A DNA stretch of 64,000 nt, taken from the NCBI RefSeq assembly GCF_004114915.1, contig NZ_CP022219.1, positions 2,262,501-2,326,500 on the forward strand, in the 5' to 3' direction. The stretch comes from Bradyrhizobium guangxiense (GTDB taxonomy: Bacteria > Pseudomonadota > Alphaproteobacteria > Rhizobiales > Xanthobacteraceae). Below, in pieces: positions 6,936 to 45,265 of this stretch. Within the stretch, counting starts at the first letter, position 1. Every line of letters starts with the position of its first letter. The notes below the pieces were generated by a model, which saw only the letters and a list, made by a program, of their open reading frames with translations, did not search any database and was not told where the DNA came from. The translations under genes were made by a program, and so were the position numbers.

Positions 6936-7072
6936 GTGCGGATCATGCCATGCACATCATGCCGGCGCGCAGGCGTCCGGCTGGAAATTCCGGGCGAGGC
7001 TGCGTTAAGCTGCACGCGCCGGCACGTCGCTGAAGCTGCGGCTTCGTCCGAGAGATCACCAGGAAATCGCTG

Positions 7073-25079: not shown

Positions 25080-25367
25080 TCAACCCTGCCGGCGCAGGAA
25101 GCCGGTGATCGTGATCTTTTCCCAGATCCCGGCCGCGGCAAAGGGATCGGCGCGATTGAAGGCTTCGACCTCGCTACGGCTGGGCGCCTCGATCAGGAAC
25201 AGGCTGCCGATCATGGTTGCGCCGTCGTCGGAGACGAGCGGTCCCGACATCACGATCTTGACGCCGAAGCGCGAGGTGTCGCTCAGGAATGCCTTGTGGG
25301 CATCGTAATTGGCGAGCCTGGTTGGCAGCGCACCGGCGCGGTCGATGGCGTGAATGGCGAACAGCAT
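25080..25367 (-). CDS. YciI-family protein (possible lyase/dehydrochlorinase-like enzyme)
   Basis: 95-residue YCII-domain protein (ferredoxin-like fold dimer). It has the early His/Asp pair (H6, D9 in AIHAIDRAG), a second histidine in YDAHKAF and the segment VMSGPLVSDDG, which is usual for the family. A characterised relative, TftG, removes HCl from 5-chloro-hydroxyquinol in the Burkholderia 2,4,5-T pathway, upstream of a hydroxyquinol dioxygenase and maleylacetate reductase. Both of those enzymes occur in this operon. A similar role here is an inference; YciI proteins are diverse. It is the last gene of the leftward operon. Confidence 0.8.
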   Translation of the reverse strand: MLFAIHAIDRAGALPTRLANYDAHKAFLSDTSRFGVKIVMSGPLVSDDGATMIGSLFLIEAPSRSEVEAFNRADPFAAAGIWEKITITGFLRRQG

Positions 25368-25398
25368 GGTGATCTCCGTTTCTTGGCTTTCGTTCTTG

Positions 25399-25422
25399 GG
25401 ACGGCCGCTGTGGCGGCCGTCC
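25399..25422 (-). other. GC-rich intercistronic hairpin downstream of the sugar-type binding-protein gene
   Basis: A perfect 10-base-pair stem (arm GGACGGCCGC) with a 4-base loop, between the binding-protein stop (25440) and the YciI start (25367). No U-run follows on the minus strand, so full termination is unlikely. Such hairpins often protect the 3' end of abundant binding-protein mRNA or cause partial termination. Confidence 0.6.
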
Positions 25423-25439
25423 GGATGTGAGGGGTGGAT

Positions 25440-26414
25440 TTACTTGGCGCCGAGCTTGCCGGCGTCCTCGAAGGTCGGGCAGGTGCGCTGCTCCAGCGGC
25501 ACGTCGAACGGCTGATAATTGTCCTTGGTGATGACGGTGGGCTTAAGCACGATCTCGGCGATCACAGGCTGGTTGCGCAAGGCGCGGATCGCCATCATGG
25601 TGCCGAGGCAGCCTTGCGCAAAGCCGTTGTAGTCGCCGCTGGCGAGCAGCTTGCCGGATTTGATCGCGTCGATCGCCTCCTTGGTGCCGTTGATGCCGAT
25701 CACCTGCGCCTTGCGGTTGGCGCCGTCGAGCGCCTCGATCGCGCCGACCGCCATGGCGTCGTTGGCGGCCAGCACGCCGTCGATCTGCGCATTCGACTGC
25801 ATCAGGTTCTCCATGACCTGGAGCGCCTGGAGCCGCTGGTAGTTGCCGGGCTGCGAGGCCAAGAGCTTGGCGCCGGGCGCTTCCTTCAGCGCGTCGTTAA
25901 AGCCGCGCACGCGGTCGACATTGGTGAGCGAGCCCTTGACGCCCTCGATGATGACGATGTTGCCCTTGCCGCCGAGCGTCTTGAGCAGGAAGCGCGCAGT
26001 CTCGAGCCCGAGGCTGTAATCATCGGCGCCGACGAAGGACAGGAACTTGCCGCCGGCGGAACGGTCGGTGATGTTGACGACGGGGATCTTGGCTTCGTTG
26101 ATCTTCTCGACTCCAGGCACCATCGCCTTGTAGTCGACCGGGGTGAACACGATCGCGCTCGGCTTCTTCACCACGACGTCCTCGATCTGGCTGAGCTGCT
26201 CGGGGATCGAATCCGGCTTGGTCGGGATGTACTGCAGCGTCTTGGCGTTCAGCGTCTTCGCCATGTTGTCGGCGCCGACCCGCACCGTCTGGAAGAACGG
26301 GTTGGTCTGGTTCTTGGTGAAGACGGCGATGGTCTCGCCGTCGGCGCGCGCCTGGCTGGTGAACGCCGCCGCCATCAGCAGCGGCAGCGCGAGATAGCCC
26401 AGTTTCCGTGTCAT
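25440..26414 (-). CDS. sugar-type ABC transporter substrate-binding protein (RbsB/Peripla_BP_4 family)
   Basis: 324 residues from ATG 26414, preceded by GGAGGCAAC. The Sec signal peptide ends near AFTSQARAD. The mature protein starts ETIAVFTKNQTNPFFQTV, the standard opening strand of ribose/Lsr-type binding proteins. Later motifs are FVGADDYSLG and VLAANDAMAVGAIEAL. The family binds pentoses, AI-2, polyols and some non-sugars. Genes for two permeases and an ATPase lie upstream in the same operon. Placement in a hydroxyquinol operon suggests a ligand that feeds that pathway. Confidence 0.9.
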   Translation of the reverse strand: MTRKLGYLALPLLMAAAFTSQARADGETIAVFTKNQTNPFFQTVRVGADNMAKTLNAKTLQYIPTKPDSIPEQLSQIEDVVVKKPSAIVFTPVDYKAMVPGVEKINEAKIPVVNITDRSAGGKFLSFVGADDYSLGLETARFLLKTLGGKGNIVIIEGVKGSLTNVDRVRGFNDALKEAPGAKLLASQPGNYQRLQALQVMENLMQSNAQIDGVLAANDAMAVGAIEALDGANRKAQVIGINGTKEAIDAIKSGKLLASGDYNGFAQGCLGTMMAIRALRNQPVIAEIVLKPTVITKDNYQPFDVPLEQRTCPTFEDAGKLGAK

Positions 26415-26455
26415 GTTGCCTCCATCCCTCATTTTGCTTGTTGGATTGCTAGAAC

Positions 26456-27433
26456 TCATTGCGCGCGGCGGCGGGTCTTCATGTCGAGCCAGACCGCGAG
26501 AATGACGATGATGCCTGTCACCAGCGGCTGCCAGTTGGCGCTGACCGAGAGCAGGTTCATGCCGTTCAGCACCAGCGTCAGGATCAGCGCGCCGATGAAG
26601 GTGCCGAACACGGTGCCAACGCCGCCGAACAGCGAGGTGCCGCCGATCAGCACCGCCGCGATCGCGGGCAGCGTCAGGCTCTCGCCGATGTCGGCCTCGG
26701 CCGAATTGAGTCGCGACAGGAAGATGATCGAGGCGAGCCCCGCCATGATGCCGGAGACGGCATAGACCAACAGCAGGCGCCGCGCGACCGGAATGCCTGA
26801 TAGCCGGGCCGCGACCGGGTTGGCGCCGATCGCATAGATCTCCTGGCCCCAGATCGTGCGCTGTGCGAACAGCGTTCCGATCCCGAGGAACACCAGGAGC
26901 AGATAGACCGGGATCGGCAGGCCGAACAGATAGCCGCTGCCGATCTGGCGGAAGCCGGCCGGAAAGCCGTGCAGCGTCTCGCCCGCCATGTACCAATAGG
27001 TCAGGCCGTTCAGCACCCAGAGCATGCCATAGGTGGCGATGAAGGAGGGGATGCGCAGCGCGGTGACCATGATGCCGTTGAGCAGGCCGACGATGCCGCC
27101 GCAGGCAAGCCCGGTCAGGATGCCGAGCGCCGGCGAGCCGGTCTTGTGGATCACGGTGCCGGCGATGCAGGCCGACAGCGCGACATTGGCGCCGACGGAG
27201 AGATCGAGGCCGGCCGTCAGCACCACCAGCGTCAGGCCGGAGGCGATGAAGAAGGTCAGGCTCGCCTGCCTCAGCACATTGAGGATGTTGCCGAGGCTCA
27301 GGAAGGAATCGCTGAGCACGGCGAGCACGGCGCAGATCAGGAATGCCGCGAGCAGGCGATAGAACAGCTGGATCGCATCCTGCGACAGGAAGGAGCGGGG
27401 CGGCATCATCGCCTCTTTGGTGATGTCGGTCAT
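26456..27433 (-). CDS. ABC transporter permease, RbsC/LsrD-like (second permease)
   Basis: 325-residue BPD_transp_2 membrane protein with about eight to ten hydrophobic segments. Family markers are LTLVVLTAGLDLSVGANVAL and the C-terminal VLIGGTSLFGGVGTVFGTFIGA. It overlaps the preceding permease gene by 4 bases (27430-27433). Because the operon has two non-identical permeases, the channel is probably a heterodimer. Confidence 0.92.
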   Translation of the reverse strand: MTDITKEAMMPPRSFLSQDAIQLFYRLLAAFLICAVLAVLSDSFLSLGNILNVLRQASLTFFIASGLTLVVLTAGLDLSVGANVALSACIAGTVIHKTGSPALGILTGLACGGIVGLLNGIMVTALRIPSFIATYGMLWVLNGLTYWYMAGETLHGFPAGFRQIGSGYLFGLPIPVYLLLVFLGIGTLFAQRTIWGQEIYAIGANPVAARLSGIPVARRLLLVYAVSGIMAGLASIIFLSRLNSAEADIGESLTLPAIAAVLIGGTSLFGGVGTVFGTFIGALILTLVLNGMNLLSVSANWQPLVTGIIVILAVWLDMKTRRRAQ

Positions 27434-28380
27434 GCGCGGCTCCTGAGGCCGTCGAGGAACAGGGCAACAATGACGAGTACGCCGACGCTTGCGACCTGCA
27501 CCGATGACGGCAGCGAGATCAGGTTCAACCCGTTGCGCAGCACGCCGACGGCGAGGACGCCGAGCAGGGTGCCGAGCAGCCAGCCATTGCCGCGTTCGAA
27601 CGACGTGCCGCCGACGGCGACGGCGGCGATGGCATCGAATTCCAGGCCGAGGCCGGCGGTCGGATGGCCGGAATTCATCCGCGCGGTCATCAACAGGCCC
27701 GCGATCCCGGCCATGGCGCCGCCGATCGCGTAGACCGCGATCAGCAGCTTGTTGGGCGAGAGTCCGGCATAGCGTAGCGCCTCGCGGTTGCCGCCGAGCG
27801 CGAAGATGTAGGTGCCGAAGCGGGTGTGATAGAGCAGGCCGTGGAACGCCGCGTAAGTCACCAGCGCCATCACGATCGGCACGGGCACGCCCAGCAGCGT
27901 CGCCGAATAGATGTCACGCACGCTGTGGGGGATGCCGACCACGCTCTGGCCGTCGCTGACGATCAGCGACAGGCCCTGGGCCATACCGAGCGTGCCGAGC
28001 GTCGCGACGAAGGGCGGGATGCCGACGATCGCGACCAGCCAGCCATTGGCGATGCCGAACGCCGCACCGACGAGCAGGCCGGCGCCAAGACCGAGCAGCA
28101 TCGACTTGGTCGCGAGCGACACGATGGCGACGCAGAGTGAGGTCAGCGTCAGCACCGCGCCCATCGACAGGTCCAGCCCCTCGGTCATGATGATCAGCGT
28201 CATCGGCAGCGCAAGCATGGTCAGGATGGTCGACTGCACCAGCACATTGGAGAGGTTGGCGACCGACAGGAAGCCCGGCGCGATCGCGCCGAACAGGGCG
28301 ATCAGCAGCACCAGCACGATGGCAACGCCGGGAATTCGTTGCAGCGGATTGGGCTCTGAAGCGACTGCGGCCTCACGCAT
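27430..28380 (-). CDS. ABC transporter permease, RbsC/LsrC-like (first permease)
   Basis: 316-residue BPD_transp_2 protein. Contains LIIMTEGLDLSMGAVLTL and VAVGGTSFERGNGWLLGTLLG, the two conserved family segments, between multiple membrane helices. It overlaps the ATPase gene end by 8 bases (28373-28380) and the next permease start by 4. Paired permeases in one operon are known from Lsr (AI-2) and rhamnose importers. Confidence 0.92.
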   Translation of the reverse strand: MREAAVASEPNPLQRIPGVAIVLVLLIALFGAIAPGFLSVANLSNVLVQSTILTMLALPMTLIIMTEGLDLSMGAVLTLTSLCVAIVSLATKSMLLGLGAGLLVGAAFGIANGWLVAIVGIPPFVATLGTLGMAQGLSLIVSDGQSVVGIPHSVRDIYSATLLGVPVPIVMALVTYAAFHGLLYHTRFGTYIFALGGNREALRYAGLSPNKLLIAVYAIGGAMAGIAGLLMTARMNSGHPTAGLGLEFDAIAAVAVGGTSFERGNGWLLGTLLGVLAVGVLRNGLNLISLPSSVQVASVGVLVIVALFLDGLRSRA

Positions 28381-29896
28381 GATGCATCCCCAATCGCACG
28401 ATGTTCTCCTCGGTCAGTTCGTTGCGGGTCAGATGGCCGGCAATCCGCCCTTCGCGCATCACATAGGCGCGGTCGCAGACATGGCAGATCTCAATCTGCT
28501 CGGACGAGATCATCAGCGCCGCGGCGCCATCGGCGACGAGCCGGTCGATCAGCGCGAAGATCTCGGACTTGGCGCCGATGTCGATGCCCCGCGTCGGCTC
28601 GTCGAAGATGAAGAGCTTTGAGCCGGCCGCCAGCCATTTTCCGATCACGACCTTCTGCTGATTGCCGCCCGAAAGCAGGCCAACGGTTTGCCGCGCGCTC
28701 GGTGTCGCAATCCGCAGCTGCCGGATCAGGCCGTCGGCGGTTCGCTGCGCCGCGCGTTGGTCGAACAACCCGCTTGGAAACAACTTCTTCAACGCCGACA
28801 CAACGAGGTTGTCACTGACGGAGCGCAGCAGCGCGAGGCCTTCGCTCTTGCGGCTCTCCGGGATCAGCGCGATACCGCGGCGGGCAGCAAGATCGGGCTC
28901 GCCGGAAATCGCCTTGCCGTCGAAGATGATCTCGCCCGACGTCACGGGATCGGCACCGAAGATGGCGCGCGCGACCTCGCTGCGGCCGGACCCGACGAGG
29001 CCACACAGGCCGACGATCTCGCCCCTGCGCACCTCGATATTGATGTCGGAGATGCCGGTCGAGGAGGTCAGACCCTTGACCTGTAGCAGCACCTCGCCTG
29101 GTTTGTCGGCGAAATTCCTGGGATAAGTCATGTCGACATTACGGCCGACCATCATGCGCACGAGCTGGTCCGGCGTCACGTCGGTGGGGCGAGCTCCGTC
29201 GATGCGGCGGCCGTCGCGCAGCACCGTGATGCGATCGCCGATCGCGAACACCTCGGCCATGCGGTGCGAGATATAGACGATGGCGACGCCATCGGCCTTC
29301 AGCCGCGCGATCAGCGCGAACAAGAGCTCGGTCTCGCGGTCGGACAGCGCCGCGGTCGGCTCGTCCATCACCAGGATGCGGGCATTCTGGCTGATCGCTT
29401 TTGCGATCTCGACCATCTGCTGCTGGGCGACGCCGAGCTTGTCGACGATCGTGGAGGGATCGACGTCGAAGCCGATTGTATCGAGCACGCGCTTGGCGTC
29501 GGCCAGGATCCGGCGGCGGTCGATGGTGCCGGGGATGCGGCCCTTCGGCTCGCGGCCGAGGAAGATGTTCTGGGCGATATCGAGATAGGGAACCAGCGAG
29601 AATTCCTGGAAGATCACGGCAATGCCGAGCTTCTGCGCATCTGCGGTCGAGGAGATCGCGACTTTCTTGCCCTCATGGAAGAACTCGCCGGCATCAGCGC
29701 GGTAGGCGCCGCACAGCACCTTCATCAGGCTCGACTTGCCGGCGCCATTCTCGCCGAGCAGCATGTGCACTTCGCCGGGGTAGACCGCAAAGGACACGTC
29801 GTCCAGCGCCTTGACGCCGGGGAATTCCTTGCTGATGCCGCGCAGCTCCAGCAGCGGCGTAGGCGAGGTGACCTCGATCGGGAGCGCGTCGCTCAT
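28373..29896 (-). CDS. sugar ABC transporter ATP-binding protein (RbsA type, two NBDs)
   Basis: 507 residues with tandem nucleotide-binding domains. Domain 1: [14 protein letters not shown], the signature-like LGVAQQQMVEIAKA and Walker B ILVMDEPTA. Domain 2 has the degenerate Walker A GLVGSGRSEVA typical of RbsA-type proteins, with LSGGNQQKV and LFIFDEPTRG. First gene of the four-gene importer and 10 bases downstream of the flavoprotein gene, so clearly part of the catabolic operon. Confidence 0.94.
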   Translation of the reverse strand: MSDALPIEVTSPTPLLELRGISKEFPGVKALDDVSFAVYPGEVHMLLGENGAGKSSLMKVLCGAYRADAGEFFHEGKKVAISSTADAQKLGIAVIFQEFSLVPYLDIAQNIFLGREPKGRIPGTIDRRRILADAKRVLDTIGFDVDPSTIVDKLGVAQQQMVEIAKAISQNARILVMDEPTAALSDRETELLFALIARLKADGVAIVYISHRMAEVFAIGDRITVLRDGRRIDGARPTDVTPDQLVRMMVGRNVDMTYPRNFADKPGEVLLQVKGLTSSTGISDINIEVRRGEIVGLCGLVGSGRSEVARAIFGADPVTSGEIIFDGKAISGEPDLAARRGIALIPESRKSEGLALLRSVSDNLVVSALKKLFPSGLFDQRAAQRTADGLIRQLRIATPSARQTVGLLSGGNQQKVVIGKWLAAGSKLFIFDEPTRGIDIGAKSEIFALIDRLVADGAAALMISSEQIEICHVCDRAYVMREGRIAGHLTRNELTEENIVRLGMHHA

Positions 29897-29906
29897 GACT
29901 TGTTGC

Positions 29907-31301
29907 TCATGTCTTGGCTCCGCCTGAAAAGATCTTTCCGGGGTTCATTAGTCCGTCCGGATCGAGGGCGGTCTTGATCGATCGCATGACCTCGACGGCC
30001 TCGCCGAGCTCATCCGTGAGATATTCGATCTTGCCGAGCCCGATGCCGTGCTCACCCGTACAGGTGCCATCCATGGCGATGGCACGGGCAACCATGCGGG
30101 CCTGCAGCGCCTTGGCGCCTTCGCTCTCCTCCGGCTTGGCCGGGTCGATCAGGATCAGCATGTGAAAGTTGCCGTCGCCGACATGGCCGACAATCGGCGC
30201 GGTGAAGCCGTGCTCGTCCGCATCGCGCCGCGTCTCGGTCAGGCATTCCGCCAGCCGCGAGATCGGCACGCAGACGTCGGTGATCACGGCGCGGGCGCCG
30301 GGCCGCAGGCCGAGGCCCGCATAGAGCGTGTTGTCGCGGGCATGCCAGAGCCGGCTGCGGTCTTCCTGTGCCTTGGCCCAGGCAAAGCCATGGCCGCCAT
30401 GATCGGCGGCAATCGCCTGCGCGGCCTCGGCCTGCTCGGCGACCGAGCTCTCCGAGCCGTGGAATTCGAAGAACAGGGTGGGGGCCTCGCGGTAGCCGAG
30501 TTTGGCATAGGCGTTGATGCCGCGCATCATGACGTCGTCGAGCAGCTCGATCCGGGCGACCGGAATCGCGGACTGGATCACGGAGATTGCGGTGTCCACG
30601 GCATCGTGCAGGGTGTCGAAGCTGCAGACCGCGGCCGAGATCGCCTGCGGCACGGCGTGCACCTTCAGCGTGATCTCAGTGATGATTCCGAGCGTGCCTT
30701 CCGCCCCGACGAACATGCGGGTCAAATCATACCCCGCCGCCGATTTGCGCGCGCGCCTGGCGGTGCGGATCACGCGGCCGTCGGCCAGCACCACCTCCAG
30801 CGCTATGACATTGTCCTTCATGGTGCCATAGCGCACCGCCATCGTGCCGGATGCGCGGGTGGACGTCATGCCACCGATCGAGGCGTCGGCGCCGGGATCG
30901 ATCGGGAAGAACAGGCCGGTATTGCGCAGCTCGGCATTGAGCTGCTTGCGGGTGATGCCGGGCTGCACCACGACGTCCATGTCGCTGTCGTGCACGGCCA
31001 GCACCTTGTTCATGCGTGCGAAGTCGAAGCAGACGCCGCCGGCGACCGCAGCCGCATTGCCCTCGAGCGAAGTCCCGGCGCCGAACGGGACGATCGGTAT
31101 GCCCGCGCTCGCGCACAGCTTCACGATCTCGGCAACCTCATGCGTCGTCTCGGGGAAAACGACGATGTCGGGCGGCAGGCTCCGATAATGCGACTCGCTC
31201 TGCCCATGCTGATCGAGCACGCCGCGCGCGACGCTCGCGCGCGGGCCGATCATGCCGGTGAGGCGATCGGCCAATATGCTCGTGCTGACCCGCGGTCCCA
31301 T
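29907..31301 (-). CDS. FAD-linked oxidase, D-lactate/glycolate dehydrogenase-like
   Basis: 464-residue flavoprotein with an N-terminal FAD_binding_4 (PCMH) domain (PFGAGTSLEGNAAA) and a C-terminal FAD-oxidase domain with GHVGDGNFHMLI and GEHGIGLGK. This is the DLD/GlcD branch that oxidises D-2-hydroxy acids to 2-oxo acids and passes electrons to quinone or cytochrome c. No signal peptide or Fe-S partner is present. In this operon it may oxidise a hydroxy-acid side product or the imported compound. Exact substrate unknown. Confidence 0.87.
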   Translation of the reverse strand: MGPRVSTSILADRLTGMIGPRASVARGVLDQHGQSESHYRSLPPDIVVFPETTHEVAEIVKLCASAGIPIVPFGAGTSLEGNAAAVAGGVCFDFARMNKVLAVHDSDMDVVVQPGITRKQLNAELRNTGLFFPIDPGADASIGGMTSTRASGTMAVRYGTMKDNVIALEVVLADGRVIRTARRARKSAAGYDLTRMFVGAEGTLGIITEITLKVHAVPQAISAAVCSFDTLHDAVDTAISVIQSAIPVARIELLDDVMMRGINAYAKLGYREAPTLFFEFHGSESSVAEQAEAAQAIAADHGGHGFAWAKAQEDRSRLWHARDNTLYAGLGLRPGARAVITDVCVPISRLAECLTETRRDADEHGFTAPIVGHVGDGNFHMLILIDPAKPEESEGAKALQARMVARAIAMDGTCTGEHGIGLGKIEYLTDELGEAVEVMRSIKTALDPDGLMNPGKIFSGGAKT

Positions 31302-31361
31302 CCTCAGCTCCCTGTCTCCTCGATCGCGGACTCTTGCCGGTCCGCTGCGTTGCCGCCCGGC

Positions 31362-32246
31362 TTAGGCGGCTCTTGCGTTGCTCGCAACCGGCTTCAAACC
31401 GAAATCGTAGTTGAGATGAAAATACGCGCGCTCCACCATGCGACCATCCGGCGCACGGCCGGCTGGATGACGGACGAATTCGCGGATCAGGCTATCCTTG
31501 ACGCCGAACACCACGTCGCTGTCGAGATATTGGTCGCCGGCAACGAACACGTGCGTCACCAACTGCTCGAAACCGGGCGCTGAGATCATGAAGTGCACAT
31601 GCGCCGGGCGCCAGGGATGGCGTCCCTGCGCCTCCAGCATCACGCCGACCGGCCCATCATGCGGAATGGGGTAGGCGGCCGGCTTGATCGACCAGAAATG
31701 GAAGCGGCCGTGGGCGTCGGTATGGAAGCGGGCACGCATGGCGAGATCGCCGATCTGGTCGAGCTGCTGCACGTCGTAATAGCCGTCGTCGTCGGAGTGC
31801 CAGACATCGACGATGGCGTCTACAAGCGGCTTGCCGTCGACGGTCGAGACCGAGCCGGTGACCAGCATCGGATCGCCCTCCATCGGGCCGGAGATATCGG
31901 CTCCGCTGTTCTTCTCCGGCGCGGCCTGGACGAAGAACGGCCCGAGCACCGTGGTCTCGGTCGCGCCTTCCGGAACTGGATGGTTGATCGCATCGACCAG
32001 CATGGAGACGCCGAGCGTGTCCGACAGCAGGATGAACTCCTGGCGCTTGTCGTCGCACATATGCCCGGTGCAGGTCAGGAACTCGATGCCGTATTCCCAT
32101 TCCTTCTGGGTCGGACGCACCTCGCGGACGAAGGCATGAAGGTGCCGGACCAGCGCCTCGCTGACCTCTTTGATGCGCGGGTCGGTCGCGCCGGCGATCC
32201 GCGCCAGCACCGCGTCCGTGATCGTGGTCTCGTTGAAGTTGCGCAT
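31362..32246 (-). CDS. intradiol dioxygenase, probably hydroxyquinol 1,2-dioxygenase
   Basis: 294 residues. Dioxygenase_N domain (about 20-95) then the intradiol catalytic domain. Fe(III) ligands are visible: the Tyr of DGYYDVQ (Y157), Y192 in AAYPIPHDG, and H216 and H218 in RPAHVHF. It would cleave hydroxyquinol (1,2,4-trihydroxybenzene) between the ortho hydroxyls to maleylacetate. Catechol 1,2-dioxygenase is the main alternative, but the maleylacetate reductase gene two genes upstream in the operon strongly favours hydroxyquinol. Confidence 0.88.
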   Translation of the reverse strand: MRNFNETTITDAVLARIAGATDPRIKEVSEALVRHLHAFVREVRPTQKEWEYGIEFLTCTGHMCDDKRQEFILLSDTLGVSMLVDAINHPVPEGATETTVLGPFFVQAAPEKNSGADISGPMEGDPMLVTGSVSTVDGKPLVDAIVDVWHSDDDGYYDVQQLDQIGDLAMRARFHTDAHGRFHFWSIKPAAYPIPHDGPVGVMLEAQGRHPWRPAHVHFMISAPGFEQLVTHVFVAGDQYLDSDVVFGVKDSLIREFVRHPAGRAPDGRMVERAYFHLNYDFGLKPVASNARAA

Positions 32247-32260
32247 AGGGGCTCCGTGGA

Positions 32261-33163
32261 TCAGAGTTTGGGCTCGCCGAGGCCGGACAGCCGTTCGAGA
32301 TGCTTGACCGTCGCGATGAAGTCGGTGTCGCCGTCGCCCTGCGCGACCAGCGAGCCATAGGTCTCGCGCACCTGGGCCGCGAGCTGGAGCGGGACGCCGA
32401 CGGCGTGACCGGCACCCAGGATCAGGTCGAGGTCTTTGGCCATCTGCTTGCAGGAGAAGGTCGACTCGAAGTCGCGCGTCCTCAGCGGCGCGGTCTTGTA
32501 CTTGACCATGGGGGAGGCCACCGCGCTGTCGTCGAGCACTTTCAGGATGTCCTGCCAGGCAATGCCGCCCTTGCGCGCCAGCGCCAGGCTCTCCGCCATC
32601 ATCGCCGCCGACACGGCGATCATCAGATTGACCGAGAGTTTCGCATAACGCGCTTCCTCGGCGGGGCCGAGATAGGTCTGGGCGCGGGTGAAAGCGGCGA
32701 CCAGCGGCTTTGCGCTCTCGAAGGCCTCTTTCGGCCCCGAGACGAAACAGGTCAGGGCGCCGGTGTGAACGATGCTGGCGTTGCCGGAAACCGGTGCACG
32801 AAGATAGAGAATGCCACAGGACTGCGCCGTGGCAGCAACTTCGGTGGAGGCCTCGACGCTCACTGTGCTGGTTTCGATCAGAACAGCACCGGGCGCCATC
32901 GCAGCGATGAGGCCGGTCGGGCCGAGCAGCGCGCCGCGCAAGGCGGCGTCGTCAGGCAGGGAGGTGATGACCGAGGCCTTGCCGCTCACGGCCTCGGCGG
33001 GCGATGCGGCAATCGCAATGCCCTGGGCGCGAGCCTCGCTGATCCGCGCTGCGCTCTGATCGAACGCGGTGACGGTGTAGCCGGCTTTGGCGACGAGCAA
33101 GGACATCGGCAGGCCCATCTTGCCGATCCCGATGAAAGCAACATTCTTCGAAGCGTCTGTCAT
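32261..33163 (-). CDS. beta-hydroxyacid dehydrogenase (6-phosphogluconate dehydrogenase-like family)
   Basis: 300 residues. An N-terminal Rossmann domain with GIGKMG (12-17) and the substrate segment APVSGNASIVHTGAL, then a helical NAD_binding_11 domain. The likely catalytic lysine is in YAKLSVNLM. The family covers 3-hydroxyisobutyrate, tartronate semialdehyde and related dehydrogenases. It lies between the dioxygenase and amidohydrolase genes with 14- and 21-base gaps, so it is part of the operon. The substrate within the pathway is not evident. Confidence 0.85.
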   Translation of the reverse strand: MTDASKNVAFIGIGKMGLPMSLLVAKAGYTVTAFDQSAARISEARAQGIAIAASPAEAVSGKASVITSLPDDAALRGALLGPTGLIAAMAPGAVLIETSTVSVEASTEVAATAQSCGILYLRAPVSGNASIVHTGALTCFVSGPKEAFESAKPLVAAFTRAQTYLGPAEEARYAKLSVNLMIAVSAAMMAESLALARKGGIAWQDILKVLDDSAVASPMVKYKTAPLRTRDFESTFSCKQMAKDLDLILGAGHAVGVPLQLAAQVRETYGSLVAQGDGDTDFIATVKHLERLSGLGEPKL

Positions 33164-33184
33164 TGTTGTTGTCCGTTGGCGCCT

Positions 33185-34558
33185 TCAGGCGGCGCGCTCC
33201 TGTCGTTCGATGTCCTGCACCAGCCGCCGGCCGGATTGCGCCAGCAGCTCCTTCTTCGTCGCGAGTCCGTCGGCCAGCAGCCGGCCGTTCCGCTTCTTCC
33301 AGGCGCCGCCGATCATCACGGCCTCGATGTTGGCGAGGCTCGTCTGCATCAACACGGTCGCGACGGGATCGTGCACCGGATAAAGATTGAGATCGGAGGC
33401 GTTGATGATGACGAGGTCGGCCTGCTTGCCCGGCGTCAGCGATCCGATCTGGTGCTCGCGGCCGAGCATGCGGGCGCCTTCCGTCGTGATCCAGCGCAAC
33501 GCCTCGCGCACCGGGATGGTGGTCGTGGCCGGAATGGTGCCGCTGGTCTTGCGCGCCTCGGCATTGTCGAGCGCCCGCTGCATCGAGAGCGCGATGCGCG
33601 CGGCGGAGAAGACATCGCCGGCCAGCACGGATTCGAGATCAATGCCGATTGTCGGCCGGACGCCACGCTTGAGCAGACGTCCGGTGATCGGAAAGCCGTG
33701 GCCCTGGATCATCTCGTTCTCGGGCGTCACTGAGAACGACACGCCGAGATCCACGAGACGATCGAGCAGATCATCAGATAGATCGTTGCCGTGGACGATG
33801 TTGACGCTCGGGCCGACGAGGCCAGCCTCGATCAGTTTCTCCCAGCCGCCGGGGGTCTTGGCCGGGCCGCCACCCTGATGCATCGATGCGATCAGCTTGA
33901 ACTCGCGTGCGAGTCGGAAATCCTGCATGGCGACGTCGAGCGTCGAATAATGCGGGCCGAGAATGGCGAGCCCGAGTGTGACGAGGCCGTCGCGGTCGGC
34001 GAGAGGGCCCGCCAGCAGCCGCTCGACCTCGCGGCGCGGATGCGGCACTTCCGAGAAATGCGGCTCGCCCGGTTTCGGCTCAGGCTTGGGCGAGCCGTGG
34101 AAGAAGGCGGCGCGGATCCCGCTCTCGATCAGGCCGCGCACAGCGGCGTCGGTGTGATCGGGCGTCGGATTGTTGTGGCACCAGTCGACCAGCGTCGTGG
34201 TGCCGCAATTGATCTGGTTCAGCGCGCCGACGAGCGTTGCGATGTGGATGTCCTCGGGCCGGAACACGGTCGCAAGGCCCGCATGCATGCGGCGGAAATA
34301 TTCCAGCAGGGTCCAGTTGGCGGCGAAGCCGCGCAAGCCGGTCTGCCAGGTGTGCATATGCGCGTTGATGAGGCCGGGAATGACGATCCGGCCCGTGCCG
34401 TCGACGATATCGGTCTCAGCAGCCCCGCTGCCGAGATCGATCGAAGGGCGCACGTCGACGATGCGGCTGCCCTCGACCAGCACGTCGCAGGTCGCGAGAT
34501 CACCGATCGCGTCATCCATGGTGATGACGGTGGCGGATCTGATCAGCGTGCGCCGCAT
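33185..34558 (-). CDS. amidohydrolase of the ATZ/TRZ (triazine/guanine deaminase) subfamily
   Basis: 457 residues from ATG 34558, 4 bases after the maleylacetate reductase stop. Metal-dependent amidohydrolase: NAHMHTW (H67, H69), later metal or active-site residues in SMHQGGG, IVHGNDLSDD and IGIDLES, and the C-terminal IGSLTPGKQADLVII strand. This branch includes AtzA/TrzN, cytosine/guanine and SAH/MTA deaminases, which remove amino or chloro groups from N-heterocycles. Its presence in a hydroxyquinol operon suggests a nitrogen- or halogen-bearing aromatic substrate, which is inference only. Confidence 0.85.
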   Translation of the reverse strand: MRRTLIRSATVITMDDAIGDLATCDVLVEGSRIVDVRPSIDLGSGAAETDIVDGTGRIVIPGLINAHMHTWQTGLRGFAANWTLLEYFRRMHAGLATVFRPEDIHIATLVGALNQINCGTTTLVDWCHNNPTPDHTDAAVRGLIESGIRAAFFHGSPKPEPKPGEPHFSEVPHPRREVERLLAGPLADRDGLVTLGLAILGPHYSTLDVAMQDFRLAREFKLIASMHQGGGPAKTPGGWEKLIEAGLVGPSVNIVHGNDLSDDLLDRLVDLGVSFSVTPENEMIQGHGFPITGRLLKRGVRPTIGIDLESVLAGDVFSAARIALSMQRALDNAEARKTSGTIPATTTIPVREALRWITTEGARMLGREHQIGSLTPGKQADLVIINASDLNLYPVHDPVATVLMQTSLANIEAVMIGGAWKKRNGRLLADGLATKKELLAQSGRRLVQDIERQERAA

Positions 34559-34562
34559 CGCC

Positions 34563-35642
34563 TCAAGCCGCCGTTTTGATCGCGACCGGGGGCTCGCCGG
34601 CCCAGGCGCGTGCAATCAGGTCGCGAATGGCGTTTCGGTCGAGTGGACGCGGATTCCAGTAGGCGTTGGTGACGGCAAGATCGGCCGCCTTGTCGATGCC
34701 GCCCTCGGGCATGCCGACGTCGCGTAGCGCCAGCTTCGCACCCAGTCGCTTTGCAAGGTCGTACAGTCGCTGTGCGGCATCGGCCGCGCCGATCGCGCGC
34801 GAGATGCGCGCCATCGCGTCGGGCACATCAGGCGCGTTGTAGGCCAGCGCATGCGGCAACACGATGGTGTGGGTCTCGGCGTGCGGCAGATCGAAGGTGC
34901 CGCCGAGCGTGTGACAGAGCTTGTGGTGCAGCGCCATGCCGACGGTACCGAGGCAGACGCCGCACAGCCAGGCGCCATAGAGCGCTTCGGTGCGCGCCTC
35001 GCGGTCGTCACTTCTGGCGGCAATCGCGGGCAGGGCGCGGGCCAGCGCACGGATGCCTTCTTCCGCCATCAGCGAGGTCACGGGATTGGCATCCCTCGCA
35101 TAGAGCGCTTCCACCGCATGAGCGATGGCGTTGATGCCTGATGTCGCAGCCAGGCTCGCCGGCAGTGTCAGCGTCAGATCGACATCGTAGATCACGGTCT
35201 CAGGCAGGATTGCCGCATCGCGCACCGTGGTCTTCAGGCCGTTCTCGGTCTGGCCGACGATCGGCGTCATCTCCGAGCCGGCATAGGTGGTGGGAATGCA
35301 GAGCTGATTGATTCCGGTGCGCAAGGCCAGCGCCTTGCCGAGGCCGGTGGTCGATCCGCCGCCGAGCGAGACGACGCAATCGGCCTCGCACGCCTTCATC
35401 GCCGTGAGCGCGCGCTCGGTGACATCGACCGGTGTGTGCATAGTGGCGCCCGGAAAGATGCCGGCAAAGAGCGGGCCAAGTGCGGTGCCAAGGCTCTTGC
35501 CCTGAGCCTCCTGCTGCGGCGTCGTCAGCACCAGCGCGCGCTTGCCGCCGAGCCGTTCGACCTCGGCCTTGGCGCTAGCCAACGTTCCGCTGCCGAACAC
35601 GACGCGGCAGGGCAGGTTTTCAAAGGTGAACGAACCGATCAT
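34563..35642 (-). CDS. maleylacetate reductase (iron-containing alcohol dehydrogenase family)
   Basis: 359 residues, the usual length. The N-terminal FENLPCRVVFGSGTL is characteristic of maleylacetate reductases. NAD-binding GGGSTTGLGKALAL and the metal-binding histidines in LHHKLCHTLGG and LPHAETHTIVLPHALAYN follow. It reduces maleylacetate to 3-oxoadipate, the step after hydroxyquinol cleavage. It overlaps the Dabb gene by 4 bases. Confidence 0.92.
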   Translation of the reverse strand: MIGSFTFENLPCRVVFGSGTLASAKAEVERLGGKRALVLTTPQQEAQGKSLGTALGPLFAGIFPGATMHTPVDVTERALTAMKACEADCVVSLGGGSTTGLGKALALRTGINQLCIPTTYAGSEMTPIVGQTENGLKTTVRDAAILPETVIYDVDLTLTLPASLAATSGINAIAHAVEALYARDANPVTSLMAEEGIRALARALPAIAARSDDREARTEALYGAWLCGVCLGTVGMALHHKLCHTLGGTFDLPHAETHTIVLPHALAYNAPDVPDAMARISRAIGAADAAQRLYDLAKRLGAKLALRDVGMPEGGIDKAADLAVTNAYWNPRPLDRNAIRDLIARAWAGEPPVAIKTAA

Positions 35643-35962
35643 GCGCCGGTCTCTTTGATGGGATAATCGACCTGAAAGCGTCCAATCCGCAAGTCGCCCA
35701 AGGCCTCGCGGACCCGCAGATGTTCCGGATGGTTGGCATAGGCGCTGAGCGCCGCCTGGTCAGTGAATTCGGAGAACAGCACCACGTCGCAGGCGTAGTC
35801 GACATCGCTGACGTCCATGCCGACTTCGATATGGGTGAGGCCGTCGATCCGGCCCTTGAGGCCTTCGAACAGGGTCTTGACCTTGAGCCGGGCGGCGGAG
35901 CGCTCCGCAGGGGTCTCCCCGCGTAGCCGCCACATCACGATGTGCCTGATCGGGCCCGACAT
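35639..35962 (-). CDS. Dabb (stress-responsive A/B barrel) domain protein
   Basis: 107 residues from ATG 35962, preceded by an AGGAA-type site. Begins MSGPIRHIVMWRLRGETP and contains HIEVGMDVS and LFSEFTDQAALSAYANHPEH, the Dabb signature with its conserved histidines. It is a small dimeric alpha/beta barrel; relatives act as cyclases or isomerases of aromatic or polyketide intermediates, or have no known activity. First gene of the leftward catabolic operon, divergent from the LysR regulator. A function in the hydroxyquinol route is plausible but unproved. Confidence 0.87.
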   Translation of the reverse strand: MSGPIRHIVMWRLRGETPAERSAARLKVKTLFEGLKGRIDGLTHIEVGMDVSDVDYACDVVLFSEFTDQAALSAYANHPEHLRVREALGDLRIGRFQVDYPIKETGA

Positions 35963-36069
35963 TTCCTGATTTCCTCGCCTGCTATCGCGCTTTGTTGGCA
36001 CTATTTTGCCTTGCAGAAATCGGAAATAAAGACCAAAATTTGTAAGTCTCTTTTCCTTTTTACGCAAAA
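35963..36069. promoter_or_regulatory. divergent promoter/operator region between the catabolic operon and the LysR gene
   Basis: This 107-base AT-rich gap holds two imperfect inverted repeats. ATTTCCTGATTTC at 35961-35973 mirrors GAAATCGGAAAT at 36016-36027, with one extra base in the left arm. GGCA-N6-TGCC lies at 35997-36010 between those arms. LysR-type regulators usually bind such dyads between divergent genes, so this is the best operator candidate. No consensus -35/-10 was assigned. Confidence 0.5.
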
Positions 36070-36993
36070 ATGGACCGGCTGCTCCAACTCGAGGTCTTCG
36101 CCAAAACCGCTGAGCTCGGCAGCCTGTCCAAAGCTGCCGAAATCCTGCGGATGTCGAACGCGGCCGCCAGCCGCCATCTCAGTGCGCTGGAGGAGCGCCT
36201 GGCCGTCCGGCTGATCGAGCGCAATACGCGCCGGCAATGGCTGACGGAAGCAGGGCAGGAGCTGTTGCAGCGCTGCGGCACGCTGCTGAACGAGCTTGCC
36301 GAGGCCGAAGACGCGGTCTCCGACCGCGCGCTGTCGCCGAAGGGCATGCTGCGCGTGACGTCTTCGCTGTCCTTCGCGATGATCTACCTCGCGCCGATGC
36401 TGCCCGCCTTCCGCGCGCTCTATCCTGATCTCAGCGTGCAGATCATCAGCGCGAACCGCTATCTGGACTTCATCGAGGCCGGCATCGACGTCGCGATCCG
36501 CACGCGGGAGCACGAGCCGGATTCCAACATCATCGTGCGCCGCATCGGCCAGATGCACCGCGTGCTCGCGGCGGCTCCGTCATACCTGGAGAAGCACGGC
36601 CGGCCTGAGCATCCGGCGGATCTCGCCCGTCACAACATGCTGATCTACAACCTCGCCAATGATCCCTATTCGCTGCGCCTGAGCCAGGGCAGCACGACCC
36701 AGACGGTTCGGATCGCGCCGACGCTCGACAGCAATGATGGCCAGATCATCTGTGGTGCGGCGCGTGCAGGGCTCGGCATCCTGATCCAGCCGCTCTACAT
36801 CGTGCAGGGCGATATCGCGGCCGGCCGGCTGGTGCCCGTCCTGAGGGACTGGCAGCTGCCGTTGCTCACCATGAACATCGCCTATCAGAACCGCGTCAGG
36901 CTGCCGGCCAAGATCAGGGTCTTCTCGGACTTCCTGGTCAGCCACATCCGCGAGCATTCGGAGCCGGGGATCTGGATCGACGCGGCGAAGTGA
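36070..36993 (+). CDS. LysR-family transcriptional regulator
   Basis: 307 residues. The N-terminal winged helix-turn-helix is at about 15-36 (GSLSKAAEILRMSNAAASRH), followed by the linker helix and a LysR_substrate domain (about 90-295) that senses an effector. It is divergent from the hydroxyquinol operon and 13 bases upstream of xylulokinase on the same strand, so it could control either or both. The ribosome site is poor. Divergence and the inverted repeats upstream favour regulation of the leftward operon. Confidence 0.92.
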   Translation: MDRLLQLEVFAKTAELGSLSKAAEILRMSNAAASRHLSALEERLAVRLIERNTRRQWLTEAGQELLQRCGTLLNELAEAEDAVSDRALSPKGMLRVTSSLSFAMIYLAPMLPAFRALYPDLSVQIISANRYLDFIEAGIDVAIRTREHEPDSNIIVRRIGQMHRVLAAAPSYLEKHGRPEHPADLARHNMLIYNLANDPYSLRLSQGSTTQTVRIAPTLDSNDGQIICGAARAGLGILIQPLYIVQGDIAAGRLVPVLRDWQLPLLTMNIAYQNRVRLPAKIRVFSDFLVSHIREHSEPGIWIDAAK

Positions 36994-37006: not shown

Positions 37007-38452
37007 ATGTATCTCGGCATCGATCTCGGCACCTCCGCAGTCAAGACCGTTCTCGTCGACGAGGCCCAGCGCGTGATCGCAAGCGAGAGCCGGCCGCTGA
37101 CGATCACCTCGCCGCAGCCGGGCTATGCCGAGCAGGACCCGGCGCTGTGGATCGATGCGGCCTTCGCCACGCTGGATGCCCTGAAGGCCTCGCATGCTGG
37201 CGCGCTGGCGGCGGTCAAAGGGATCGGGCTGTCCGGCCAAATGCATGGCGCGATACTGCTCGACGCGAGCGCGAAGCCGCTGCGGCCCTGCATCCTCTGG
37301 AACGACGGGCGCTCTGCCGCCGAGTGCCGGATCCTGGAGCGGCGCTGGCCGGCGTTGCGCGCGACCACGGGCAACAAGGCGATGCCGGGGTTCACCGCGC
37401 CAAAATTGCTCTGGATCGCGACGCACGAGCCTGACGTCTTTGCGGCGACGAAGCTCGTGCTGCTGCCAAAGGCCTATCTGCGCCTGGTGCTGTCAGGCGA
37501 GGCCGTCGAAGACGTTTCGGATGCGTCGGGATCCCTATGGCTCCACGCCGCGCGCCGGGACTGGTCGGATGCGGCACTGGCAGCGACCGGCCTGTCGCGC
37601 CAGCACATGCCGCGCCTGGTTGAAGGATGTGCGCCCGCGGCGAGGCTGCGCTCGGAGCTCGCGCAGCGCTGGGGTATGACCGGACAGCCCGTGATCGCGG
37701 GTGGCGCCGGCGACAACCCGGCCGGCGCCATGGGCATCGGCGCGATCGAGCTGGGAACCGCGTTCGTATCGCTGGGAACCTCGGGCGCCTTGCTGGCACC
37801 GACCAACAGAATAGCCGCCAACCCCGATCGTGTCGTGCACACGTTCTGCCACGCCATTCCCGGCATGTGGATTCAGGCCGGTGCGATCCTCTCCGCCGCC
37901 TCCTGCCTCACCTGGGCCGCGCGCTTGTTCGGCGTCAGCGAGGCTGAGTTGCTGGCACCGCTTGGATCGCGCCCGCAGGCACCGTCGCCGGTGAGCTTTC
38001 TGCCGTATCTCGCAGGTGAGCGTACGCCGCACGACGATCCCGCCGTGCGCGGCATGCTCGATGGTTTGAGCCATGGCACCGATCGCGCTGCGATCGTGCA
38101 GGCGGTGCTCGAAGGCGTTGCCTTCGCGCTGGCAGATTGCCGCGACGCGCTCGCGGGTGCCGGCATTGCGATTGCGGAAGCCGACGTCATCGGCGGTGGT
38201 TCGCGCTCGGAGTTCTGGCTCGCGGTGCTGGCCAACGTACTGAATGTTCCAGTCCATCGCTTTGCCGGCGGCGAGACCGGCGCGGCGTTCGGTGCGGCGA
38301 GATTGGGGCGACTTGCTGTCACCGGTGAGGCGATCACCGCCGTGTGCACGCGGCCGCAGCGCATCGCGACGTTCGAACCTGACGCCGGGCTGACCAGTGC
38401 CTATGCCGAGCGGCTTCCCGCCTGGCGCCAACTGTATCGCCCACGCCACTAG
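37007..38452 (+). CDS. xylB: xylulokinase (FGGY family)
   Basis: 481 residues, full length. The N-terminal MYLGIDLGTSAVKTVL ATP-binding strand, GLSGQMHGAILLD and CILWNDGRS are xylulokinase-type substrate residues. The second domain has GGAGDNPAGAMGIG and the FGGY signature VIGGGSRSEFWLAVLANVL. It phosphorylates D-xylulose to enter the pentose phosphate pathway. It is followed by a sugar ABC importer, consistent with pentose or pentitol uptake. No isomerase or polyol dehydrogenase is in the immediate cluster. Confidence 0.92.
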   Translation: MYLGIDLGTSAVKTVLVDEAQRVIASESRPLTITSPQPGYAEQDPALWIDAAFATLDALKASHAGALAAVKGIGLSGQMHGAILLDASAKPLRPCILWNDGRSAAECRILERRWPALRATTGNKAMPGFTAPKLLWIATHEPDVFAATKLVLLPKAYLRLVLSGEAVEDVSDASGSLWLHAARRDWSDAALAATGLSRQHMPRLVEGCAPAARLRSELAQRWGMTGQPVIAGGAGDNPAGAMGIGAIELGTAFVSLGTSGALLAPTNRIAANPDRVVHTFCHAIPGMWIQAGAILSAASCLTWAARLFGVSEAELLAPLGSRPQAPSPVSFLPYLAGERTPHDDPAVRGMLDGLSHGTDRAAIVQAVLEGVAFALADCRDALAGAGIAIAEADVIGGGSRSEFWLAVLANVLNVPVHRFAGGETGAAFGAARLGRLAVTGEAITAVCTRPQRIATFEPDAGLTSAYAERLPAWRQLYRPRH

Positions 38453-38582
38453 CCCAGCCGCGATGTTGCATTCCCAGGTGTTCGGTATTGCCCTGGCTTG
38501 CGGCGTTTTGTTTAATGGGTGAGCCGCGCTGACAAGACGATTGAGACGCGGGTAGGAAACGCATTGTGCGCCGGGAGGCACG

Positions 38583-40106
38583 ATGAACGATCCGATTCTC
38601 GAGATGCGTGGGGTCTCCAAGACCTTCTTTGGCATCAAGGCGCTGCGGGCCGTCGATCTCACTGTCTATGCCGGCGAAATTCATGCGCTGATGGGTGAGA
38701 ACGGCGCCGGCAAGTCGACGCTGATGAAGATCCTGTCCGGGGCCTACAGGCCTGATCCCGGCGGCGAGATCCGCATCGAAGGACACCCGGTACGGATCGA
38801 AGGTCCGCTCGGCGGCCGCAGCGCGGGCATCTCCATCATCTATCAGGAGCTGTCGCTGGCGCCCAATCTCAGCGTCGCCGAGAATATCTATCTCGGGCGG
38901 GAGCTCTCGCGATCAGGTTTGCTGGCGCGCGGCGCCATGCGCGAAGGCGTCGGTCCGATCCTGAAACGGCTCGGCGCGGACTTCCTGCCCTCGACGCTGG
39001 TGGCGCATCTCTCCATGGGCCAGCGGCAACTGGTCGAGATCGCGCGTGCGCTGCACGCGAGATCAAAGATCCTGATCATGGACGAGCCGACCACCGCGTT
39101 GTCGGCCGCCGAGAGCGAGCGGCTGTTCGCGTTGATCCGCCAGCTCCGCGCCGAGGGGCTTGCCATCATCTACATCTCGCATCGCATGGACGAGGTCTAC
39201 GCGCTCGGCGACCGCGTCACTGTGCTGCGCGACGGCCGGTTGGTCGGCTCGCTCGACAAGCCCGAGATCCGCGCCGACACCATCGTGCGGCTGATGGTCG
39301 GGCGCGACGTCTCCTCGTTCTACAAGAAGGACCACGATCCCGAGGCGGGGCGGGGACATCCCGTGCTCGCGGCAATCGACATGGCCGACGCTCAGCGCGT
39401 CAGGGGCTGCTCGCTTACCGTGCATGCGGGCGAGGTGGTTGGCCTCGCCGGCCTGATCGGCGCCGGCCGCACCGAGCTTGCGCATCTCATCATCGGCGCG
39501 TCGCCCAAGACCTCCGGCCGGCTCGAGCTGGAGGGACAGCCGGTCGAGATTCGCAATCCCGGAGAGGCGCTCGAGGCCGGGATCGCCTATCTGACCGAGG
39601 ACCGCAAAGCGCTCGGCCTGTTCCTCGACATGTCGTGCCTGGACAACATCAACCTCGCGGTGCTCGGCCGCGATGCGAAGCTCGGCTGGTTCCTGGATCG
39701 CGACAGAGCGCGCGAGCGCGCCGCCAGGGCCTTCGCAGGCCTCAGCATCCGCGCCGCCAATGTCGGCGTCCCCGCCGGGGGCCTGTCCGGCGGCAACCAG
39801 CAAAAGGTGCTGCTGTCGCGGCTTCTGGCCATTGCGCCGAAGGTCCTGATCCTCGATGAGCCGACGCGCGGCGTCGATGTCGGCGCCAAATCCGAGATCT
39901 ATTCGATCATCGACAATCTGGCCAAGGCCGGCACCGCGATCCTCGTCATCTCGTCCGATCTGCCCGAGATCATCGGCATCTGCGACCGCGTCGTCGTGAT
40001 GCGGATGGGGCACATCGCCGGCGAGGTGACGCGCGGCCCCAATTCGTCGCTGACGCAGGAAGACATCATGGCGCTTGCCACGGGGATGGAGCATCTCGAT
40101 GCCTGA
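38583..40106 (+). CDS. sugar ABC transporter ATP-binding protein (XylG/RbsA type)
   Basis: 507 residues with two NBDs. Domain 1: [27 protein letters not shown] and ILIMDEPTT. Domain 2: the degenerate Walker [21 protein letters not shown] and [16 protein letters not shown] ribosome site precedes the ATG. The 130-base gap after xylB contains no recognised terminator. It overlaps the permease gene by 8 bases. Confidence 0.94.
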
Positions 40107-41136: not shown

Positions 41137-41180
41137 GAGCCTAGGTGCGCGCCCGCTCGATGCGAATTCCGCTGCGGCAA

Positions 41181-41214
41181 CTGGTCTGCCGCGCCGGAGA
41201 CGAAGACAGACCAG
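41181..41214 (+). other. intercistronic hairpin before the sugar-binding-protein gene
   Basis: A perfect 8-base-pair inverted repeat (CTGGTCTG / CAGACCAG) with an 18-base loop. It ends at the base where the Shine-Dalgarno GGGAGGA of the next gene begins (ATG 41226). It may mark an RNA processing site that raises binding-protein mRNA relative to permease mRNA, or modulate initiation. Confidence 0.5.
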
Positions 41215-41225
41215 GGAGGAAGTCC

Positions 41226-43851: not shown

Positions 43852-43876
43852 GTCGAGCCCATTTCCACGTATCAGG

Positions 43877-45052: not shown

Positions 45053-45265
45053 GGATCCCCGACCCGTTAGAGAAACGAAATCTTCACCTTCTTAACTCCG
45101 TACCTATCATGCGGGTATCGCGTGGACACCGACCCGAAACAAACGAAGTTAATGCGCGACTTGCCCGTCGACGTCGTTCGTGCCGTTTTTCGCCTGTTCC
45201 TGAACGGCGAGCAGGGAGTTGCGTTAACCAATCGGCCTCGCGTGCCGCCGCTGCGTGAACGCCGG

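Follow-up and report, generated by a model that had tools for sequence, protein, structure and literature searches.

An eleven-gene Bradyrhizobium operon joining a hydroxyquinol lower pathway to a sugar-type importer: a candidate system for cyclitol catabolism

Hydroxyquinol is known to arise by the hydroxylation of aromatic compounds, and the lower pathway that consumes it belongs to degraders of resorcinol, p-nitrophenol and chlorophenols. Alicyclic polyols are handled by other described systems. Bacterial inositol catabolism (Iol) draws on a CUT2 importer, the dehydrogenase IolG and a TIM-barrel dehydratase, and quinate and shikimate are converted to protocatechuate by a dehydrogenase, AroQ and QuiC, the last being a dehydroshikimate dehydratase and an aromatising enzyme. 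In a stretch of 64,000 nucleotides from Bradyrhizobium guangxiense (contig NZ_CP022219.1, positions 2,262,501 to 2,326,500; hereafter the window), an eleven-gene operon brings together a predicted hydroxyquinol lower pathway and an importer of the CUT2 type. We propose, with middling confidence, that this operon catabolises a sugar-like polyol without an aromatic ring, a cyclitol being the likeliest, via import, oxidation and dehydration to hydroxyquinol, followed by cleavage to 3-oxoadipate. Among the cyclitols, an isomer of inositol, pinitol or another inositol ether, and quercitol or another deoxy-inositol are candidates.

The operon, its lower pathway and its importer

The eleven open reading frames (ORFs) that a sequence-only reading had placed at 25080..35962 are all present on the minus strand, compactly arranged with intergenic gaps of -8 to 72 bases and facing a divergent gene for a LysR-type regulator (36070..36993, plus strand; Pfam HTH_1 and LysR_substrate). 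From 35962 downwards the order is a Dabb-family small protein, maleylacetate reductase (MAR), an amidohydrolase (AmH), a GarR-like beta-hydroxyacid dehydrogenase, hydroxyquinol 1,2-dioxygenase (HQD), a FAD-linked D-2-hydroxyacid (D-lactate dehydrogenase-type) enzyme (FADox), the importer ATPase, permeases 1 and 2, the periplasmic binding protein and a YciI-family protein. The eleven genes are presumably co-transcribed; a scan of the operon for promoter- and terminator-like sites gave counts at shuffle level only.

The two enzymes of the lower pathway lie in the same operon. HQD (31362..32246) gave its best match, at 1.7e-91, to the solved hydroxyquinol 1,2-dioxygenase 1tmx, far ahead of catechol enzymes, which reached 2e-35 at best, and the segments that hold both Tyr and both His, which we take to be the iron ligands, align to 1tmx. 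For MAR (34563..35642) the best match was 3jzd (1.8e-132), a structure named only as an iron-containing alcohol dehydrogenase, followed by the maleylacetate reductases 3w5s (3e-126) and 3hl0 (8e-124). By these matches, which agree with the earlier assignment, the operon is predicted to encode the hydroxyquinol ortho-cleavage lower pathway. In a resorcinol or phenol upper pathway an aromatic monooxygenase would accompany HQD and MAR; as had been noted before, none was found among the eleven genes in Pfam and NCBIfam scans, the rest of the genome not having been searched for one. The genome that carries the window (G000, 8.2 Mb) has two more HQD-like paralogues, at C1:1675062-1675931 (L123) and C1:6533658-6534497 (L125), with 52% and 42% identity respectively, the second of them near pca-type genes.

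The importer consists of a double-domain ATPase of the RbsA/AraG type (28373..29896, from domain and profile matches), two permeases with Pfam BPD_transp_2 domains (27430..28380 and 26456..27433) and a Peripla_BP_4 binding protein (25440..26414), which together identify it as CUT2 and bear out the physical coupling to a sugar-type importer. The permeases scored 212 and 233 bits against the NCBIfam ribose permease, below its cut-off of 398. The best solved relative of the binding protein was 2ioy (6.8e-50); in the alignment, at the positions of the ribose pocket, N, F, F, D, R and N are kept, F is changed to Y and D to N, and Q is also changed. The closest solved structure was tried as a guide to the ligand and proved uninformative, as it pointed to a ribose type in the window, to ChvE in the related cluster L141 and to the sugar-binding protein 4rwe in L175.

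Conservation of the operon and exchange of its oxidoreductases

The sequence-only reading had suggested a comparative search for the same gene set. A genome scan with AmH gave 447 pattern matches, 426 of which were relatives, and the best 80 loci of these were compared gene by gene. All eleven genes were found in order and on one strand in 68 of the 80, so that the arrangement is more than chance, and the divergent LysR gene was kept in 71. In the remaining 12 loci at least one gene is absent or a contig end cuts in. HQD was unmatched in L053, FADox was reduced to a remnant in L070 and gave no match in L071, and L072 retains only Dabb, MAR, AmH and YciI, all four being natural losses in Bradyrhizobium loci. 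No Dabb match was obtained in L075-L080, of which L076 also lacks a MAR match; L081, cut by a contig end, matched neither Dabb nor MAR, and L082 starts within AmH. Across the genus AmH was found at E<=1e-150 in 68 of 146 genomes (three of these matches cover it only partly), and the nearest relatives of the operon locus among named genomes are Bradyrhizobium.

The 107-base divergent regulatory region (35963..36069) contains the blocks AAAAGA, TTTATTTCCG and GCAAG, which were unchanged in 12 aligned loci, including those of Azorhizobium (L083) and Bosea (L086). The LysR protein of the window is 72% identical to that of L190 and 51% to that of L141, and the LysR genes in L170-L177 and L179-L184 are 54-63% identical to one or the other of the window and L141 genes; the regulator probably senses the substrate or an intermediate. 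In L077 a LacI-type regulator occupies the LysR place; the stretch that holds it (1744-8722), beside the operon, also has genes of the MarR-like and RidA-family types and another CUT2 importer (ATPase 56%).

Many related clusters came from plasmid records and further genomes. Outside the best-conserved loci such clusters were found to keep the importer and the hydroxyquinol lower pathway and to vary the alcohol dehydrogenase or oxidase, which may be of the FADox, Gfo/Idh, GMC, SDR or Zn type. The closest of them, L190, is a syntenic operon (LysR 72%, Dabb 72%, MAR 70%, AmH 66%, GarR 55%, HQD 59%, ATPase 61%, second permease 60%, binding protein 57-60%, YciI 72%; the first permease was compared only with its paralogue, 36%). 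It has no FADox match, HQD and the ATPase lying about 107 bases apart, and carries after YciI a Gfo/Idh/MocA gene whose best NCBIfam score was 99 bits to IolG, cut-off 355. L173 has importer genes of the window's family (binding protein 71%, permease 72%, ATPase 66%) together with HQD, Dabb, YciI, GarR, MAR, LysR and a GMC oxidoreductase, and neither AmH nor FADox was matched. L087 holds a CUT2 importer, SDR, ThuA, AmH, GarR, HQD, a nitroreductase-family protein, MAR and BKACE. L104 holds AroQ, a CUT2 importer, a Zn dehydrogenase, GarR, YciI, HQD and MAR; the best family of the Zn dehydrogenase was scyllo-inosose 3-dehydrogenase, at 201 bits with a cut-off of 450. L175 and its near copy L179 hold AmH (59%), a TIM-barrel protein, Dabb, HQD, MAR, SDR, Gfo/Idh and a CUT2 importer; the proteins of L175 were scanned against families, those of L179 compared only, and the TIM-barrel protein of L175 is weakly QuiC-like (52 bits). 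AroQ lies near HQD in L104 and L117, and AroQ or QuiC-like proteins occur in L092, L100, L104, L117, L141, L171 and L175. The window binding protein is 69-71% identical to that of L173 and 57-60% to that of L190, and those in L087, L104, L141, L171 and L175, at 20-29%, belong to different CUT2 subfamilies.

Two of the small families recur as well. GarR-like proteins (window gene 32261..33163; Pfam NAD_binding_2 and NAD_binding_11) 41-55% identical were found in L087, L104, L122, L160, L165, L173 and L178, and Dabb proteins 56-72% identical to the 107-aa product of the first gene (35639..35962; PDB relatives 3fmb, 3bb5 and 3bde) occur in L122, L141, L171, L173, L175 and L190. Dabb was searched in 150 genomes of one family (f216, the family of G675), where 31 matches were obtained in 28 genomes. 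The surroundings of 21 (L141 and 20 more) were read, the ten left out being one match of 59% and nine of 34-38% identity. HQD was present in 20 of the 21, the exception, L178, running into a contig end. An IolG-type gene was present in ten (L141, L166-L169, L171, L172, L174, L176 and L177, from nine genomes), in every case above the curated inositol 2-dehydrogenase cut-off of 355 bits (381 to 400 bits). These ten clusters also have a CUT2 importer, HQD and MAR, and nine have a TIM-barrel protein within the stretch read. In the 19 genomes concerned 27 places exceeded the IolG cut-off, namely the ten in Dabb regions and 17 elsewhere, the latter one per genome in 17 genomes, 14 of these 17 being accompanied by another copy that scored under the cut-off. 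As Dabb regions make up 0.28% of the DNA of these genomes, 0.08 IolG places were expected there and ten observed, a binomial comparison that overstates independence because the ten clusters form two groups of close relatives and are not ten independent events.

As a control on context, 60 HQD regions spanning the range of identities were chosen from 56 and 70 listed matches in two overlapping genome draws, and with the gene caller and threshold used 58 HQDs were detected in 57 of them. A FAD_binding_3-like gene lay within 10 kb of ten of the 58 (nine regions) and HpaB near one; regions with either monooxygenase were L107, L109, L114, L131, L136, L138-L140, L144 and L147. The HQD table for all loci, from which most Bradyrhizobium copies and sequences below 230 aa were dropped, had 104 rows, of which three are duplicates (101 different sequences), since the G000 paralogues appear under two or three locus ids. 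FAD_binding_3, HpaB or Rieske matches, detected with few reference proteins, were found in none of the 26 CUT2-linked rows and in 11 of the 78 others (Fisher p=0.06, the rows being related); the threshold left L171, L172, L174, L176, L177 and L181, whose CUT2 ATPases are more distant, outside the CUT2 group. On the HQD tree the CUT2 label required eight changes (gains or losses), at least six of them forced by well supported branches, which indicates that the pairing of importer and HQD has been gained or lost repeatedly.

Further clusters and genes were encountered around these relatives. In L188, L189, L191 and L192 a window-type CUT2 importer has beside it SDR and BKACE genes and an intradiol dioxygenase that shares 42-45% identity with HQD, and a quinone-oxidoreductase-like protein is also present in the L188 and L191 clusters. 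In L191 this second kind of cluster adjoins the eleven-gene operon, and L078 has its dioxygenase, SDR and BKACE genes beside the operon. NADPH-dependent FMN-reductase family genes were found in or just behind clusters in L175 (9129-9707, scanned) and L091 (21558-22121, annotated), and a 192-aa gene of L179 (8780-9358, not scanned) lies at the place that matches the L175 gene; the FMN-reductase family protein might hold hydroxyquinol in its reduced state as a quinone reductase. L101, a cluster of HQD, MAR and a TIM-barrel protein with no CUT2, is alone among the related clusters in having annotated glycosyl hydrolases nearby, a glucosidase and an alpha-amylase-family gene (1-3131) about 7 kb from the dioxygenase.

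A possible route from a cyclitol and its alternatives

With an importer and lower pathway that are shared, a dehydrogenase that is exchangeable and relatives that carry dehydratase-like proteins, the import, oxidation and dehydration of a cyclitol is the simplest common scheme. The CUT2 ABC importer, a clear family member, would bring in the polyol, its putative ligand. FADox would oxidise a secondary alcohol to a ketone, as its exchange in relatives suggests. Water eliminations and tautomerisation might then aromatise the ring, for which AmH, Dabb, YciI and the GarR-like protein are candidates. HQD, as its family predicts, would open the hydroxyquinol ring to maleylacetate, and MAR, likewise by family, would reduce this to 3-oxoadipate, which could pass on to central metabolism via the pca-type genes elsewhere in the genome. 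The elemental balance closes for two of the candidates, as inositol (C6H12O6) less 3 H2O gives C6H6O3 and quercitol (C6H12O5) less 2 H and 2 H2O gives C6H6O3, and so no oxygenase is needed to form the ring before its cleavage.

The roles of AmH, GarR, Dabb, YciI and FADox in this scheme are putative. AmH (33185..34558) scored 618 bits, with a cut-off of 391, against NCBIfam NF006056, the PRK08204 subfamily, which is named 'hypothetical protein'. It retains HxH, H, H and D, presumably the metal ligands, and has Gly in the column of the HxxE Glu, which we take to be the catalytic residue of AtzA/TRZ-type enzymes; Glu was found there in none of 20 aligned sequences, including relatives 31% to 77% identical. 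This argues against deamination or dehalogenation of the 'triazine type', the label that AmH had first been given, and an AtzA/TRZ-type deaminase or chlorohydrolase was set aside. We propose that AmH is an early ring-processing enzyme. A structure model from the single sequence had a mean pLDDT of 37.8 and was unusable. In L193 an AmH homologue 54% identical adjoins a window-type importer; proteins of the YciI and ABM families are encoded close by, and HQD was not matched within the 20 kb read. FADox (29907..31301; FAD_binding_4 and FAD-oxidase_C) matched the probable D-lactate dehydrogenase 8jdc at 2.3e-160, and it is proposed here to perform the alcohol oxidation step. YciI (25080..25367) has one significant solved relative, TftG (4lbh, 1.7e-10; next match E 0.77), a 5-chlorohydroxyquinol dehydrochlorinase that we take to belong to the 2,4,5-T degradation pathway, and a precedent that the sequence-only reading had not named.

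Several findings weigh against a cyclitol substrate. Gfo/Idh, IolG, AroQ and QuiC-like genes were all absent from the window operon in the Pfam and NCBIfam scans, and the G000 genome has no IolG above the cut-off and only two weaker matches, on which ground ordinary inositol catabolism in the host was rejected. FADox carries GHVGDGNFH at 372 and GEHGIG at 416, presumably the HxGDGNxH and GEHGIG motifs of D-2-hydroxyacid dehydrogenases, and these point to an alpha-hydroxy acid. The binding protein was assigned to no curated NCBIfam ligand family, and that of L141 is ChvE-like, that is, of the monosaccharide type. In L171 and L181 the second Gfo protein was nearest to levoglucosan dehydrogenase, below its cut-off, and the Dabb cluster L182 has a FAD_binding_3 (FMO3-like) neighbour gene. 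A TRAP importer stands in for CUT2 in L122 and an MFS gene in L088, and among the 60 HQD-picked regions a CUT2 importer was found, at the threshold used, only in L141. The scarcity of monooxygenases in CUT2-linked loci is not significant; it is suggestive only and is not used as proof. Finally, AmH homologues (49%) in L090 and L103 lie beside FAD_binding_3 genes of the aromatic-hydroxylase type, so that AmH is not tied to cyclitols. There (L090 10424-13392, L103 8412-11389) the homologue accompanies a FAD_binding_3-type oxidoreductase, scanned in L090 and 61% identical in L103, and alpha/beta hydrolases, and the stretches read gave no match to HQD; this setting is possibly another use of the AmH subfamily.

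The sequence-only reading had favoured a substrate that is already a trihydroxybenzene or a conjugate of hydroxyquinol, such as a glycoside or an amine, which AmH, GarR and FADox would trim to hydroxyquinol. The lack of a monooxygenase among the eleven genes would be explained by it, TftG, the relative of YciI, acts on a substituted hydroxyquinol, and two glycosyl hydrolase genes lie near L101, itself without CUT2. The Gfo/Idh, TIM-barrel, GMC and ThuA genes of the relatives also occur in 3-keto-glycoside pathways, but the Gfo proteins of the ten sister clusters are inositol 2-dehydrogenases by curated cut-off, and those of L141 and L171 scored at most 66 bits against glycoside or disaccharide 3-dehydrogenases. 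Moreover, the relatives replace FADox with polyol-type enzymes, Gfo/Idh/MocA in L190, GMC in L173 and SDR in L087, AmH lacks the deaminase Glu, and no glycosidase was seen among the scanned or annotated genes of CUT2-bearing clusters, many ORFs there not having been scanned. We therefore consider this explanation unlikely.

A shade less probable still is a polyhydroxy acid that is itself cyclic or bears a ring, and that resembles quinate or has a side chain of the D-2-hydroxyacid type, on which FADox would act at an alpha-hydroxyacid and GarR at a beta-hydroxyacid, CO2 being lost before hydroxyquinol. The motifs of FADox, the recurrence of GarR-like proteins with HQD, the AroQ or QuiC-like proteins of the seven clusters listed above and the union of the core with a TRAP importer in L122 fit such a substrate; yet the rest of the operon stays where FADox is missing or reduced to a remnant (L070 and L071) or gives no match (L190), the dehydrogenase families of the relatives need no acid, and CUT2 importers mostly carry neutral polyols. 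That an ordinary sugar importer merely shares an operon with a hydroxyquinol funnel, with no common substrate, appears very improbable. CUT2 systems are common, a second one adjoins at 38583-42173, and the binding protein is nearest to the ribose type, but the gene order is kept in 68 of the 80 loci and the importer-HQD pairing changed at least six times on the tree, with different CUT2 subfamilies.

Beyond the cyclitol reading of the single operon, it is possible, although we hold this more tentatively, that operons for turning cyclitols (inositols, deoxy-inositols or inositol methyl ethers) into hydroxyquinol with no oxygenase, and for degrading the product by cleavage of the aromatic ring, have arisen repeatedly in Proteobacteria, the Bradyrhizobium operon being one version in which a D-2-hydroxyacid-type oxidase and an unusual amidohydrolase replace inositol dehydrogenase and the TIM-barrel dehydratase. 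With a sugar-type importer in the operon, and inositol dehydrogenases in its sister clusters, leading to one set of ring-cleavage genes, hydroxyquinol would be a meeting point of polyol and aromatic catabolism, and functions would be suggested for the PRK08204 amidohydrolase subfamily and for Dabb and YciI proteins. Excerpts of one study report that pinitol had the highest concentration of the components measured in root exudate of Mimosa pudica (PMC5789663), and excerpts of another describe legume nodules as rich in pinitol and ononitol (PMC8730688). As far as these excerpts go, cyclitols are prominent in legume exudates and nodules, and the route would thus bear on the carbon exchange between legumes and rhizobia.

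Neighbouring genes and comparison with known systems

Right after the LysR gene the window carries a FGGY carbohydrate kinase and a second CUT2 importer (37007-42173, plus strand; the importer at 38583-42173), whose binding protein shares 55% identity with its counterpart in L175 and L179, clusters with AmH, Gfo and HQD. This pair was not found beside the operon in many other Bradyrhizobium loci, for example L012, L014 and L016. Further on (42316-46612, minus strand) is a probable polysaccharide locus with a GINT1_N-domain protein, a group 1 glycosyltransferase and a Polysacc_synt protein.

No description of the gene set or of a route from cyclitols to hydroxyquinol was found among the papers listed by searches aimed at the system in the open-licence literature of PubMed Central, outside which most subscription papers lie, in keeping with the earlier view of the set as undescribed. 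We rate the system as a known lower pathway joined to an undescribed upper part. Like the degraders of resorcinol, p-nitrophenol and chlorophenols, the operon has HQD and MAR; it differs from their pathway in having no aromatic monooxygenase among its eleven genes and in having a CUT2 importer, AmH, GarR and a D-2-hydroxyacid-type oxidase. YciI is related in sequence to TftG, but no haloaromatic enzymes are found among the eleven genes. The likeness to Iol lies in the ten related clusters, which share with it an IolG-type dehydrogenase and a CUT2 importer, and nine of which also share a TIM-barrel protein, whereas the window operon is without IolG and would, by our proposal, aromatise the ring and open it with an oxygenase where Iol hydrolyses it. 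As in the quinate and shikimate route, an alicyclic polyol would be oxidised and dehydrated to an aromatic compound. AroQ or QuiC-like proteins are found in several related clusters and neither in the window operon, which would end in hydroxyquinol and not in protocatechuate.

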